DNA of 41,008 nucleotides from Nitrospiraceae bacterium (GTDB lineage Bacteria > Nitrospirota > Nitrospiria > Nitrospirales > Nitrospiraceae): assembly GCA_919902665.1 (NCBI GenBank), contig CAKKRK010000145.1:1-41008 (forward strand), given 5' to 3'. Below the pieces are notes generated by a model. That model was given only the letters and a program-made list of their open reading frames with translations. It was not told the origin of the DNA and did not search any database. The position numbers and the translations under genes are program-made. This document shows positions 19,063 through 24,775 of the stretch, one piece after another; the first letter of the stretch is position 1, and each line of letters opens with the position of its first letter.

Positions 19063-19491
19063 CTATTCGGCGCAGGTGCAGCCTGGGAGGATTTCGGTGG
19101 CAATGTAGGTCAAGTTGTTAGTGTAGGACATAAAACCCTTCCGGCGTCCAAAGAGGGTCAGCACACAGTCTGCTCCCTTGTGGTTGATAAAAAACCGGTA
19201 GTCAGTGCCAGATGGAGCGGCAATGGCGAAGGGGCGTGATCCGAGATCGTAGGTTGTGAGGGTGGAGACGGTCTTGTGTGCAAGGGCATCCGCAATCTCA
19301 GGCTTTTCACCCTCCTGAGTGAGAATGCTCGACAGTTGGTGAGTAAACGACGTGCGGCAGGATTCCTCCGAGAGGTTCGTTACCTTGGCCACCGAGACAC
19401 AGCCCGATGCTGTCAGGGCCACCGCTAGGGAGAACGCGCATACTCGGTGGGCTGGGTACACCAGCCATGCCATATGACGCAGCCTGGCCAT
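19063..19491 (-). CDS. Putative lipoprotein, last gene of the partner-switching operon
   Basis: A 142-residue protein with a type II signal peptide. The hydrophobic stretch AFSLAVALTASGC ends in a lipobox with Cys31. The mature part has four further Cys (in EESCRTS, ADCVL and the terminal GCTCAE) and a region with DYRFFINHKGADCVLTLFGR. I do not recognise a domain. Start choice: ATG 19491 (a second ATG at 19473 would also keep the signal). GGGGGAGG lies 15 bases before the first, which is rather far. It follows the membrane-protein gene after 49 bases, so it is probably cotranscribed and acts at the envelope. Confidence 0.72.
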   Translation of the reverse strand: MARLRHMAWLVYPAHRVCAFSLAVALTASGCVSVAKVTNLSEESCRTSFTHQLSSILTQEGEKPEIADALAHKTVSTLTTYDLGSRPFAIAAPSGTDYRFFINHKGADCVLTLFGRRKGFMSYTNNLTYIATEILPGCTCAE

Positions 19492-19540
19492 GGAGCGGAA
19501 GTGTAGCCTCCCCCTGTCCGATTGCACAACCTGATCCTTC

Positions 19541-20320
19541 TTATCGCTCAGGGGGCACAAAGCTGACGTTGCCGAGGGCCGTGGTTTGGACTGGCGGATA
19601 GGTTCCCTCGAATCTGGCCGGAAACACGTACAGGCGCTCCCTAACTGAGAACAGCAGCCGATACTCCTGTTCGGCATCACTGCGCAGATACAGCGTGAGC
19701 AGCGAGGAGGTTGCTTGTTTATCGACCCGTGCCCAGTTTAGTCCGAGTTGCGTAGGAACCACATATAGGCCCGCGATAATCATGGCGAATGCGATATACG
19801 CCATCGACAGATCAATGAGCCCGCCCATTGTTTTGAACCGCGCCACGAGCAGTTCGAGTGCCGAGCTCAATAAGAGCAGAATTGCAACAACACCGATCGT
19901 GGACAGAACAATAGCCGATGTGACATAGCCTAATGTGCTTAGGACTAGGGTCATCACCAAGAGCGCGAACAAGAACCATGGCCCATACTGAACCACGGCC
20001 AGGGAGCGCTTGAACTGAGCGTTCGCAGTCAAATCGTCCTGATCGGCGATCACTACGAGGTTCGTCGTAGCCAGATACCCGAGGTAGAGCAGGAGTAACA
20101 GCGGTACCCAGCTTTGACTGAAATAGGTCGCCGTCGGAACTTCCTCTAAGATCCACGAGGCTCCGAATTCTGAAAAATAGGCTTTCGTATAAAACGATCC
20201 CGAGAGATACGCCACCCCACTCAGGGCAGCCAACCCGGCTATCGCCTTCGGCGCCTGCTCGATGAGTCGTCGAGCCCCGGCTCGAGCAGATTCAGTCTTG
20301 TTTTGGTCGTCGCGGGGCAT
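19541..20320 (-). CDS. Hypothetical multi-pass membrane protein
   Basis: A 259-residue protein with about five hydrophobic segments (near 25-45, 68-92, 112-135, 138-160 and 165-190) and a soluble C-terminal part of about 65 residues predicted outside the bilayer core. It begins with a charged N-terminus (MPRDDQNKTESARAGARR). No family motif is recognised. It lies 27 bases after the STAS gene and 49 bases before a lipoprotein gene. The order phosphatase/kinase/antagonist fusion, STAS, membrane protein, lipoprotein suggests the membrane pair is an input or output of the partner switch, which is inference from synteny only. Confidence 0.75.
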   Translation of the reverse strand: MPRDDQNKTESARAGARRLIEQAPKAIAGLAALSGVAYLSGSFYTKAYFSEFGASWILEEVPTATYFSQSWVPLLLLLYLGYLATTNLVVIADQDDLTANAQFKRSLAVVQYGPWFLFALLVMTLVLSTLGYVTSAIVLSTIGVVAILLLLSSALELLVARFKTMGGLIDLSMAYIAFAMIIAGLYVVPTQLGLNWARVDKQATSSLLTLYLRSDAEQEYRLLFSVRERLYVFPARFEGTYPPVQTTALGNVSFVPPER

Positions 20321-20347: not shown

Positions 20348-20731
20348 CTAGCCCGTAAAGGCGGCGGCAGCCTCTTCTTCCGTGTTGCACAATTGAATGC
20401 TCTCTCCATACACCCGGTTCAGCAGGTCAAAGCCGCTGGCCTGAAGAGCTTCTTTGACCATCCCTTTTGCAGCAGCAATCTTCATCTGCCCTTGAACATT
20501 GTTGAGCTGCTTGCAGGCCAGTATCAGGACTCGGATCCCTCCGCTGCTGATATAGTCGATATCAGCCAGATTGAGGATGACCTTTTTCGCACCTGCATCC
20601 ACAATCTTTTTCATTTCCTGGATTCCCTGTTCCGCAGTGGTGGCGGAAAGGCTGCCCTGCATCGTGACGAAGGTGATCCCGGCATTCTGGCGGGAGGTCA
20701 CCGTCAATGTGTGTCTGGTCCCTTGATCCAT
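20348..20731 (-). CDS. STAS-domain anti-sigma factor antagonist
   Basis: A 127-residue single-domain STAS protein of the SpoIIAA/RsbV type. In partner switching such a protein, when dephosphorylated, binds an RsbW-type kinase/anti-sigma factor and frees its target. The signature LADIDYISSGGIRVL (55-69) contains the Ser62-Ser63 pair in which the phosphoacceptor is expected. AAAGGG precedes the ATG. It lies 62 bases after the 925-residue multidomain regulator, whose phosphatase and ATPase modules are obvious candidates to act on it. It gives the operon two STAS modules, one fused and one free. Confidence 0.9.
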   Translation of the reverse strand: MDQGTRHTLTVTSRQNAGITFVTMQGSLSATTAEQGIQEMKKIVDAGAKKVILNLADIDYISSGGIRVLILACKQLNNVQGQMKIAAAKGMVKEALQASGFDLLNRVYGESIQLCNTEEEAAAAFTG

Positions 20732-20793: not shown

Positions 20794-23571
20794 TCAACGT
20801 AACTCTTGGACCTTTGATAAGGCCTCTTCCAGCGTGGAGGCATAGAGACTCATCATCAATGCCCCGCTTAATTGCAGGACTGTACGGACGTGGTCGTTCC
20901 CCCCACAGATCACGACTCTTCCGTCGGTTTGGGGCATCGCCATTGCGGCTTTTAGGATTACCCGAAGCCCGATCGAGGAAATATACGAAATGCGGGAGAG
21001 ATCGAGCACGATCTGCCGTTCTCCCTGCCCGATGTGGTCCATCAAAATCTGCTCGACCTCCGGTGCGCTGTTCGTGTCGAAGCGGGTCTGTGGCGTGACG
21101 ATCATGACGGCCCCACTCCGGCGTGACTCGACACTCTTGTCGATGTTCCTTGGAGCGTCGTGTGAGGGGAACGGCAGCCGCTCGACATCGAACGAGCGGA
21201 TCTCGGTCTTGTCAGGAGCCTTCATGGTAGTGGACGTTTTAGCTACCAACTGTTTTTTCACTGTCAAGACGTTGTGCCCCACAGTGCGATGGTACGACAC
21301 CTCATCAAACATGGAGCGCACCAAGTGAATTCCCAGACCACCGATCTCGCGCTCATGAAGCAGGAGCGACAGATCAGGAGGCGCGACTGTTAGCGGGTTG
21401 AAGGGAATGCCATCATCCGTAATGGTGAAGATGACGCAGGTATCACGCACTTCGCCTTCGACCTCAATGTGATGCTCCGTCGGGGCGTTGGGGAAGGCAT
21501 ACTGCACCACATTGTTAAGCAGGTCGTCTAACGCCATATTGAGAGTGGGAATAAGCGGCTTGGCTCCTTCCCATTGTGCCACATACTGTTCAAAGGCCAT
21601 CTGGAGGTCCGGAATGGCCATCAATTGATTGGGCATCGTTTGACGGAAGACCCGATCGACCACGTCAGACGGGGCGATGCCATGATACCGCAGTCCCAAC
21701 ATCGTGATATCGTCCGCCTGCGGGACTTCACCCGCAAAGGTTCTCACTGCCTGCATGATTTCACCGAGGCGATCGACCACGGAGACAGCCTGAGATTTGG
21801 CGAGGACCGTTTTTAGCCGCTCGTTGCCGAACAGTTCGCGCCGCCGATTATCCGCTTCGGTAACCCCATCGGTGTACAAGAAGAGCTCATCTCCCGGACC
21901 CAATTGGATGGTCGTCTCCTTGAAGGCGATGCCCTCCATGGGACCGACCATGGGGCCGTCGATGCCCGTCAGCCACTCAAACTGTCCATCTTGCCGTTTC
22001 AGCAGAGGAGGATTGTGGCCGGCGTTCGTCGTGAGGAGCGAGCCATCGCGGAGATTCAAGATGCCGAGATACAAGGTCACAAACATGCAGGAATCGTTGT
22101 CCGCACTCAGCGCATCGTTGACATGTGTGACGATACTGGCGGGTGAGGGATCGGAGGCCGCCAGCGTCTTCACCATAGTCTTGGTCATGGCCATAAAGAG
22201 TGCGGCTGGGACACCGTTGCCCGATACATCGCCAATCACGAAACAGAGCCGATGCTCATCGACCAGGAAGAAATCATAGAGGTCGCCACCGACCTCCAGC
22301 GCCGGTTCGAGCACCGCATAGAGTTCGATCTCCCTCCGATCCGGGAAAGCGGGGAATACGCGTGGGAGCATACTCCGTTGAATGTCTCGACCGACATTCA
22401 GTTCTTCCTGCATGCGGGCCTTCGCGGTTTCAACCAATGCGAGGGAATCCGCTAACCGTGCCTTGGCATCTTCGGCAGCCTGTTCGGCGTTTTTCAATGC
22501 CGTAATGTCGGTCGCGATAAAGACAATCCCGCCATCATGCGTCTTCCGCTCATTGATTTGAAGCCACTCTCCACTGGACCGGTATTGAATGTAGGGTGTG
22601 ACAGGATTTCTATGCACATCCAGGCGCCAGTGCATCCAGGGTTCGACATTCCCGATCGCCGCTGGAATATCGCCGCGTTCGGCAGTCCGGCGAACGATCG
22701 ATTCGAACGGGTCGCCTGCTTGAACTTCGGGCCCAGTCCCAGACATGACTTCACGATATTTGCGATTACAGATGACCAGACGGTCGTCCACGTCGAAGAG
22801 AGCAAACCATTGGGGGACGCTTTCGATGGCTTCGATCAGACGCGCATGGCTATCGCGTGCCAGGCTTGATGCCGCCGTTACTTGCCGATCGATGATGGCC
22901 AGGAGGGTCGAGAGTGAGACGGCGACCACCGCGAGGAGATCAACCTCGATTCCAGGCGCTGGAGCACTGGACGCGATGCCGGACAGACCGTACGTCGGAA
23001 TCATCCCGATGAAGTGGGACCCAGAGAGCGCAAGTCCCATGGCGCTCGCCTTTTCTGTCACTCGCCAGTTTCTGTGCGTGATATTCCACGATCCGATCAC
23101 GATGCCGATGATGCTGAGTGCCACGATCCCAACCGTCGACAGCACAAAGAGCAACAAATCATTCTGGAGATCGATCGGCTGGTGGACCGCCATCATACTG
23201 GCGAAATGGGTCAGGGTCATACAGCCCCCCATCAGCATGCCCCCGGAGATGAGACGCATCCGACTGTCGGCATGGCTGCTGATCAGGTATACGGCGACGG
23301 CTCCTGTCGCTCCGGCGGAGAGAAATGAAAGCACGGCAAGCCCTGAATCCTGGGCTGCTGAGACCGAGGGACAGAATGCCAGATTGCCGATGTAGTGAAT
23401 CGCCCAGATTTCAAGACCCGCGGCGACGGCACCGATCGTCAGCCATCGGAACCTGACGGGGCCTTGATCAGGAGCGCGCATCCGTTCGGCGATGCTGAGG
23501 ATGACATAGGCAGCCGAGCCACCCAGCAGCAACGAGGACACACCTAGCAAGGGATCGCACATTCCGAGCAA
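20794..23571 (-). CDS. Multidomain partner-switching regulator (MHYT-like, PAS, SpoIIE, HATPase, STAS)
   Basis: A 925-residue membrane protein that joins a complete partner-switching circuit. An N-terminal seven-helix MHYT-like sensor (8-235) has diverged motifs around H59, H122 and H186. A PAS domain (246-360) and a short coiled coil (360-398) follow. Next comes a SpoIIE/RsbU PPM phosphatase (398-630) with metal-site motifs GGDLYDFF (428-435), DVSGNG (448-453), LYTDGVTEAD and ADDIT (619-623). An RsbW-type ATPase (645-775) has DDLLNN (682-687), TDDGIPFNP and GGLGIHLVR. A STAS domain (818-920) has YISSIGL. A TTG start at 23571 is chosen because AGGAG lies 8 bases before it; an in-frame ATG follows three codons later. 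The target of the switch is not identifiable here. Confidence 0.92.
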   Translation of the reverse strand: MLGMCDPLLGVSSLLLGGSAAYVILSIAERMRAPDQGPVRFRWLTIGAVAAGLEIWAIHYIGNLAFCPSVSAAQDSGLAVLSFLSAGATGAVAVYLISSHADSRMRLISGGMLMGGCMTLTHFASMMAVHQPIDLQNDLLLFVLSTVGIVALSIIGIVIGSWNITHRNWRVTEKASAMGLALSGSHFIGMIPTYGLSGIASSAPAPGIEVDLLAVVAVSLSTLLAIIDRQVTAASSLARDSHARLIEAIESVPQWFALFDVDDRLVICNRKYREVMSGTGPEVQAGDPFESIVRRTAERGDIPAAIGNVEPWMHWRLDVHRNPVTPYIQYRSSGEWLQINERKTHDGGIVFIATDITALKNAEQAAEDAKARLADSLALVETAKARMQEELNVGRDIQRSMLPRVFPAFPDRREIELYAVLEPALEVGGDLYDFFLVDEHRLCFVIGDVSGNGVPAALFMAMTKTMVKTLAASDPSPASIVTHVNDALSADNDSCMFVTLYLGILNLRDGSLLTTNAGHNPPLLKRQDGQFEWLTGIDGPMVGPMEGIAFKETTIQLGPGDELFLYTDGVTEADNRRRELFGNERLKTVLAKSQAVSVVDRLGEIMQAVRTFAGEVPQADDITMLGLRYHGIAPSDVVDRVFRQTMPNQLMAIPDLQMAFEQYVAQWEGAKPLIPTLNMALDDLLNNVVQYAFPNAPTEHHIEVEGEVRDTCVIFTITDDGIPFNPLTVAPPDLSLLLHEREIGGLGIHLVRSMFDEVSYHRTVGHNVLTVKKQLVAKTSTTMKAPDKTEIRSFDVERLPFPSHDAPRNIDKSVESRRSGAVMIVTPQTRFDTNSAPEVEQILMDHIGQGERQIVLDLSRISYISSIGLRVILKAAMAMPQTDGRVVICGGNDHVRTVLQLSGALMMSLYASTLEEALSKVQELR

Positions 23572-23767: not shown

Positions 23768-24775
23768 CTACTGCACCGGTTGATTGAGGCGGTCCCAACG
23801 TGGAGTCCTCGAGCCGAGATCAACAGACCAATAAATACACATCGCTTGCCCCAGAATGTGCTCCTTGCTGATCGGTCCCAAGAATCGGCTATCCAGACTC
23901 TCCTCCCGATTGTCACCCAAGACGAAATAGCTGTCGGGAGGTACGGTGACAGGCCCAAGGTTATCACGGACGTTTCCAGACAGGCTCGATGCGTCGGTAT
24001 GTTCCACATAGGGCTCGGTCAAGGCTTCTTCGTTCACCGAGACCACCTGATTGTGAACTTCGATCCGATCGCCAGGAACCCCGATCACGCGATGGAGAAA
24101 AAGTGTCCCATTGCTGTCTGGATAGCGATAGACGACGACTTCGCCGCGTTGAGGTTCTGCAGCATGATACGCAGCCCTATGTGCGATCACATGGTCTCCC
24201 GGCAAGAGCGCCGGGACCATCGCCTCATGTGAGATCTGGAACCGATGTGACCAGGCCCGCACCGCAGGCAACAGGTCCGGCAGACGGTCCGTCACAAAAT
24301 TCCAGCGGAGTTCTTGCATTCTGGACGTTGGGCTGAGAACTTCGTTGTCATACCCCTCGACCAATCGCCGGGCTTCTGGAACCGACAACATTGAGGCATA
24401 GTATTGCCCAAGATGGTGCTCCCAGAATTGTTCCGGGGCCAGATCGAACAGCATGACTTTGAGTGAGCGTACAAATGACTGCGCGATGCGTTCCTTCTCG
24501 GATGGCGTGAATGGACTGGTCAGATCAGACTCGATCTCTAGCTGATGGCTGAATCCCGCCACATCGGCTTGGTCCGCAATAGACTGGTACAAACGATCCG
24601 ATGCCACCTCCAGGCTGGCCAACTGGTGAAATACAGCCTGTGACTCGCTGGTACTGTCAGCGGGAGCCATAGGAGCCGTGCTGCATCCAGCCCAGAGGCC
24701 ACTCCATGTGATAAGCAGACAGAGGGCAACATGATTCAAAGATCGACTAAGGATGAGAGACAGGCAGGAGAGCAT
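23768..24775 (-). CDS. Signal peptidase I-like protein lacking both catalytic residues
   Basis: A 335-residue exported protein with an N-terminal hydrophobic segment ending LWAGC (Cys31, imperfect lipobox). A helical region (40-150) vaguely like DUF2059 follows, then an S26 signal peptidase fold (175-320). Box B reads ISHEAMVPALLPGD: the nucleophile Ser before Met is Ala185. Box D reads FLHRVIGVPGDRI: the general-base Lys is His228. Box E, GDNREESLDSRFLGP (287-301), is well kept. So the fold is present but the Ser/Lys dyad is absent. The ATG at 24775 has GAGAGGAG about 17 bases upstream, which is far. It may bind signal peptides or be a regulator; protease activity is unlikely. Confidence 0.85.
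   Translation of the reverse strand: MLSCLSLILSRSLNHVALCLLITWSGLWAGCSTAPMAPADSTSESQAVFHQLASLEVASDRLYQSIADQADVAGFSHQLEIESDLTSPFTPSEKERIAQSFVRSLKVMLFDLAPEQFWEHHLGQYYASMLSVPEARRLVEGYDNEVLSPTSRMQELRWNFVTDRLPDLLPAVRAWSHRFQISHEAMVPALLPGDHVIAHRAAYHAAEPQRGEVVVYRYPDSNGTLFLHRVIGVPGDRIEVHNQVVSVNEEALTEPYVEHTDASSLSGNVRDNLGPVTVPPDSYFVLGDNREESLDSRFLGPISKEHILGQAMCIYWSVDLGSRTPRWDRLNQPVQ

Follow-up and report, generated by a model that had tools for sequence, protein, structure and literature searches.

A partner-switching operon of Nitrospira with a STAS domain fused to its MHYT-PAS-PP2C-RsbW-like protein

In the partner-switching systems of Bacillus (RsbU/RsbV/RsbW and SpoIIE/SpoIIAA/SpoIIAB), phosphatase, kinase and STAS antagonist are separate proteins acting on a sigma factor. 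The stretch of DNA analysed here (the window; 41,008 nucleotides, contig CAKKRK010000145.1 of assembly GCA_919902665.1) carries the three modules in one reading frame behind a membrane sensor and a PAS domain, next to a gene for a free STAS protein. A first interpretation made from the letters alone (the sequence-only reading) saw in this a complete circuit with kinase, phosphatase and substrate fused, an intramolecular switch, and an output that could pass through the free STAS. The source genome comprises 3.56 Mb in 240 contigs and is 99.86% complete; its close relatives are all Nitrospira.

The 925-residue protein and its free STAS neighbour

The features of the locus were assigned as follows.
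20794..23571, minus strand: whole ORF, MHYT - PAS_7 - SpoIIE/PP2C - HATPase_c_2 (RsbW-like) - linker - STAS (ORF and Pfam)
22882..23571, minus strand: membrane sensor, residues 1-230 (Pfam MHYT, PF03707, E 2.3e-10, in two stretches; motif positions; hydrophobic segments)
22480..22827, minus strand: PAS_7, residues 249-364 (Pfam, E 1.6e-19)
21685..22260, minus strand: SpoIIE/PP2C phosphatase, residues 438-629 (Pfam, E 6.8e-51)
21253..21630, minus strand: HATPase_c_2 RsbW-like domain, residues 648-773 (Pfam, E 2.6e-17)
21523..21525, minus strand: codon of Asp683, at the position of RsbW Glu49 and the SpoIIAB N-box glutamate (profile alignment)
21139..21243, minus strand: linker, residues 777-811 (homologue of the spacer that separates the genes in split lineages; disorder predicted; rapid evolution)
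20821..21129, minus strand: C-terminal STAS, residues 815-917 (Pfam, PF01740, E 5.9e-14)
20974..20976, minus strand: codon of Ser866, phospho-acceptor position equivalent to the SpoIIAA phospho-serine (alignment)
20348..20731, minus strand: free STAS, 127 aa (Pfam STAS, PF01740, E 5.3e-17)
20543..20545, minus strand: codon of free STAS Ser63, phospho-acceptor position (alignment)

Positions 23571..20794 form one uninterrupted ORF of 925 codons, and the plus strand across 20794-23571 has stops throughout. Translation would begin at a TTG at 23571, with an AGGAG at 23584-23580, 8 nt upstream. The single chain is real: the uninterrupted frame recurs in more than 40 genomes. The domain composition given by the sequence-only reading was also borne out, since in a Pfam search MHYT, PAS_7, SpoIIE, HATPase_c_2 and STAS each scored over the curated cut-off, including the four families that it had named for a profile search.

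The sensor holds three MHYT-type motifs (IHY at 58, THF at 121 and SHF at 185, the third, SHFIGM, found by eye). A simple hydropathy scan gave five membrane segments, against seven for MHYT domains of the CoxC type. CoxC of Afipia is built alike at its N-terminus, where an MHYT sensor of roughly 230 residues that carries three His motifs leads into a signalling output; its 7-TM MHYT domain mediates a CO response via copper (PMC11347149), but the output of CoxC is LytTR DNA binding.

The phosphatase scored 173 bits against PF07228 (cut-off 25), has all of its metal-site motifs (GGD, GDVSG, TDG and ADD) and resembles SpoIIE, RsbX, SiaA and RssB in a structure search. The RsbW-like domain scored 63.5 bits against PF13581 (cut-off 27.4) and contains an N-box (DLLNN, with N687), a G1 box (DDG, with D719/D720) and a G2 box (GGLG at 744). 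In the C-terminal STAS the motif ISSIG places serines at 865 and 866, the numbering of the sequence-only reading. Ser866 aligns with the SpoIIAA phospho-acceptor, and both it and Ser63 of the free STAS line up with the SpoIIAA site that is altered in 1tid. The acceptor serine and the ATP-site boxes are alignable with the three modules of the Bacillus systems; those have a glutamate in the N-box.

The best fold match was the RsbU-RsbW crystal structure of Rv1364c from M. tuberculosis (3ke6, E 2.6e-18). The AlphaFold2 model had a pTM of 0.49, its inter-domain placement was not confident, and STAS docking judged from it was discarded, the model coming without inter-domain scores.

A complete single-chain circuit is already known. 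A passage in PMC9138534 describes Rv1364c as the whole toolbox on a single polypeptide, PAS-PP2C-RsbW-STAS, and passages there and in PMC7693655 describe self-phosphorylation and self-dephosphorylation of its own STAS at Ser600; loss of Rv1364c kinase activity was reported by an earlier paper, according to a title in the reference list of PMC9138534. Rv1364c shares with the Nitrospira protein the PAS, PP2C/RsbU, RsbW-type and STAS modules in the same order, but at 653 aa it is shorter, has no MHYT membrane sensor and is linked to SigF. What is different here is the membrane MHYT sensor, an aspartate in the N-box and the presence of split and fused forms within one genus, and no B/F-type sigma factor scored over the cut-off. 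In SypE of Vibrio fischeri, too, a kinase and a phosphatase share one chain and control a small free STAS, SypA (PMC10120452), although SypE has the order kinase-REC-PP2C, with a REC domain and neither a fused STAS nor a membrane sensor. The premise of the sequence-only reading that these modules normally occur apart holds for Bacillus and is qualified by Rv1364c and SypE.

Conservation and fusion history

Across Nitrospira, the same five-domain ORF occurs at 69-97% identity in more than 40 genomes, which include the single-contig assemblies G024 and G127; in a minority of Nitrospira genomes the gene is missing or fragmentary. The search for the same architecture was positive in these genomes and returned split forms in some Nitrospira and in the outgroups. 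Nei-Gojobori counts in four clades gave a dN/dS of 0.05-0.20 in all domains; because of these values every domain, the RsbW-like and STAS domains included, is under purifying selection. The free STAS gene, which starts 62 bp past the stop of the 925-aa ORF on the same strand, lies directly downstream at every intact fused locus with enough flanking sequence.

Several neighbouring and degraded loci were recorded. Directly upstream, at 23768-24775 (minus strand), a signal-peptidase-I-like gene is kept in most relatives with enough flank and drifts to about 60% identity. After the free STAS, at 19063-20320 (minus strand), lie a 259-aa membrane protein and, overlapping it, a 205-aa ORF that matched no family, both confined to some Nitrospira clades. 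Promoter and terminator scans gave no more matches than shuffles would give. At L131:1-8001 (genome G137, the same locus as L048), a tandem partial duplication adjoins the full-length gene and consists of a 392-aa ORF that covers the PP2C end, HATPase and STAS and, behind it, a second free STAS that is partial. At L050:3962-5557 (Nitrospira sp. CG24B), the gene breaks off near residue 483, the remainder of the switch is gone at the cut site and a helicase gene on the other strand follows. At L130:1-2904 (G161), an MHYT-encoding remnant with several stops stands alone at a contig end; here the switch seems to be in decay.

Eight Nitrospira genomes (G005, G015, G017, G131, G139, G140, G159 and G160) carry the split arrangement [MHYT-PAS-PP2C-HATPase][STAS][STAS]. 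Two genes separated by a stop, the layout that the sequence-only reading had set against its own claim, are therefore absent from the source genome and present in a set of sister genomes. In the split genomes the stop always falls right past the last HATPase strand (KKRLVA*, KKKLVS* and similar), and the STAS is its own ORF 95-103 nt on, usually in another frame, the spacer providing a start codon and mostly a clear Shine-Dalgarno sequence (AAGGAGG in G159, for example). Where the genes are fused, this interval measures 96-108 nt, is read in frame and encodes a linker of about 33 residues. Its dN/dS is 0.25-0.59 versus 0.05-0.20 in the domains, and nowhere is the AlphaFold2 model less confident than at residues 777-811 (pLDDT about 30-40); the linker is predicted to be disordered. 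In four fused loci (L006, L014, L016 and L027) an AGGAG and an in-frame ATG remain at the split-STAS start site, so that both fused and free forms of that STAS might be made; in the window this ATG has become AAG.

All outgroups are split, with the STAS in a gene of its own: other Nitrospiraceae genera (L117-L119), other Nitrospirota (L032), Flammeovirga (L096) and the Geobacter/Desulfobulbus-type operons (L063-L066). The split operons of related Nitrospira and of the Flammeovirga and Nitrospirota outgroups resemble the fused locus in that a PP2C-HATPase protein is followed by a STAS gene; they differ in that the STAS is unfused and, in the outgroups, in an N-box glutamate. The simplest reading of these arrangements is that the split form is ancestral and that fusion occurred by stop loss. 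The fused/split trait needs three changes on the maximum-likelihood tree, a single fusion origin is not rejected (p-AU 0.283), and the sampled split copies of Nitrospira form one clade on the STAS tree (95/96); a single fusion event is neither shown nor rejected, and fusion may have happened once or a few times. A divergent copy in G021 (L031/L129) has a separate, apparently broken STAS gene, with the free STAS on the other side.

On the STAS tree, the fused and the free STAS fall into two families (100/100 and 99/99), which indicates that the pair is old and did not arise through duplication when the fusion occurred. The second serine of ISS is kept in all complete rows of both. The fused STAS has the interface aspartate equivalent to RsbV Asp23 (as RFD, 35 of 39 rows), whereas in the free STAS a GSLS or GSLA motif, with Ser or Ala, stands where this aspartate is expected (all 35 Nitrospira rows). 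RsbV is described as using Asp23 to bond to its kinase. Indirectly, this difference fits a role of the fused STAS as resident partner and of the free STAS as having a different or additional partner and an output role.

The N-box aspartate of the RsbW-like domain

In the protein of the window, Asp683 takes the place of the N-box glutamate; profile alignment sets it on the E of RsbW SEACTN and SpoIIAB SEAVTN. In GHKL enzymes, changing this glutamate often lowers activity strongly, and aspartate sometimes substitutes for it. The kinase activity of the RsbW-like domain is thus doubtful, because the N-box residue that would contact the acceptor serine is an aspartate. What the sequence-only reading called a fused kinase, phosphatase and substrate holds as to the modules in one chain and the intact phosphatase motifs; on the kinase it is weakened by this residue.

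One alternative, possible and put forward tentatively, takes the kinase to be attenuated or dead. The RsbW-like domain would then bind STAS as a nucleotide-dependent clamp, with competition from the tethered STAS; another kinase would phosphorylate the STAS proteins, and the protein would be mainly a phosphatase. It accounts for an aspartate in all Nitrospira orthologs except the divergent copy of G021, which arose by one change on the tree, set against glutamate in nearly all outgroup alignment rows and in all 27 readable non-orthologous HATPase_c_2 stretches sampled across the phylum. The same glutamate contacts the acceptor Ser56 of RsbV in the RsbW crystal structure (Glu49; PMC7340262) and the SypA serine in a model of SypE (PMC10120452), and specialised non-kinase RsbW proteins are known (RsbW1 and RsbW3 of M. 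smegmatis; PMC7693655). However, aspartate is a conservative replacement that might still act as base; N687, the G1 aspartate and the G2 GGLG are intact in a domain under strong purifying selection; and G021, which keeps the glutamate, has a broken STAS gene, so that glutamate does not simply track function. A related proposal, which we consider somewhat unlikely, is that with the genus-wide change the domain is no longer an ordinary kinase, that its former STAS substrate became covalently attached, and that within a membrane sensor-phosphatase the pseudokinase-like domain and tethered STAS together form a built-in competitor for the free output STAS.

Proposed mechanism, targets and meaning

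The reading that we favour is on balance the probable one, if narrowly so: a partner-switching module derived from a three-gene operon, whose first two genes were joined by stop loss while the spacer became a flexible linker, and in which the tethered STAS is resident and the free STAS is the output. The ancestral operon would have encoded a membrane sensor-phosphatase-RsbW protein, an RsbV-like STAS and a second STAS. After loss of the stop behind the RsbW-like domain, the MHYT and PAS domains would sense a signal, by analogy a copper-bound diatomic gas, and set PP2C activity, the helical segment before the PP2C domain relaying the signal to the phosphatase. The RsbW-like domain would bind, and probably phosphorylate, the STAS serines. 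Held at high local concentration, the tethered STAS (Ser866) would be the resident partner of that domain and would compete with or buffer the free STAS (Ser63), which would be the diffusible output, dephosphorylated or released with the phosphatase on. We infer in this scheme that phosphorylation takes place, which STAS receives it, what the signal is and that a downstream target responds.

Less room is left for a stricter version, close to the sequence-only reading, in which the protein is a self-contained and fully active kinase-phosphatase-substrate circuit to which the covalent link is essential. All modules are present, and the self-phosphorylating and self-dephosphorylating Rv1364c, as portrayed in the passages cited above, is a precedent; but the same STAS is a separate gene in sister Nitrospira, the linker is a former spacer, disordered and under relaxed constraint, and the N-box has an aspartate. 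This version is improbable. The mechanism does not depend on the tether, because sister species run the system with the STAS detached. An intramolecular switch as such is plausible, tempered by the predicted disorder of the linker, the low pTM and those sister species.

Classical sigma control would make the RsbW-like domain the anti-sigma factor for a sigma of the B/F type and the fused STAS its anti-anti-sigma factor; this is improbable. Among solved structures, RsbW and SpoIIAB come closest to the domain in sequence, and a passage in PMC7693655 describes binding of Rv1364c to SigF in vitro; yet no sigma gene lies in the neighbourhood, and since no sigma factor of the source genome came up to the SigBFG cut-off (highest score 131 bits, cut-off 234), a target of the B/F type is unlikely. 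The 259-aa and 205-aa downstream products were also considered as obligate targets and rejected; such a role seems unlikely because both are absent from several lineages that keep the switch.

The source genome also encodes a second, unfused partner-switching set inside a chemotaxis/flagellar cluster (L094:12356-15383, contig C20), made up of a STAS with canonical DSSGLG, a REC-PP2C, an HPt and a REC-HATPase with an N-box glutamate. FlgM and a FliA-sized sigma factor are encoded on the same contig, and no link of this set, FlgM or the FliA-sized sigma factor to the system in the window was seen.

An artefactual joining of two genes, through faulty sequencing or assembly, has practically no probability and was ruled out: related genomes do have a stop at that site and the draft G029 has a frame break beside a run of N, but the fused frame is conserved in more than 40 independent assemblies, single-contig ones included, and dN/dS across the join is coding-like.

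A literature search on partner switching in Nitrospira returned one incidental mention and no paper describing it. Partner switching is among the main bacterial phosphorylation switches, and the effect of tethering its components has been studied essentially in Rv1364c. Nitrospira amounts to a natural experiment: closely related genomes have the same operon, in some with a fused and in others with a free STAS, and the linker is still recognisable as the old spacer, to which is added a genus-wide substitution at a substrate-touching residue of the kinase. With the split and fused series and this substitution, the effect of tethering becomes directly testable. For nitrite-oxidising bacteria the system is, in addition, a candidate for a sensory output of gas or redox signals.
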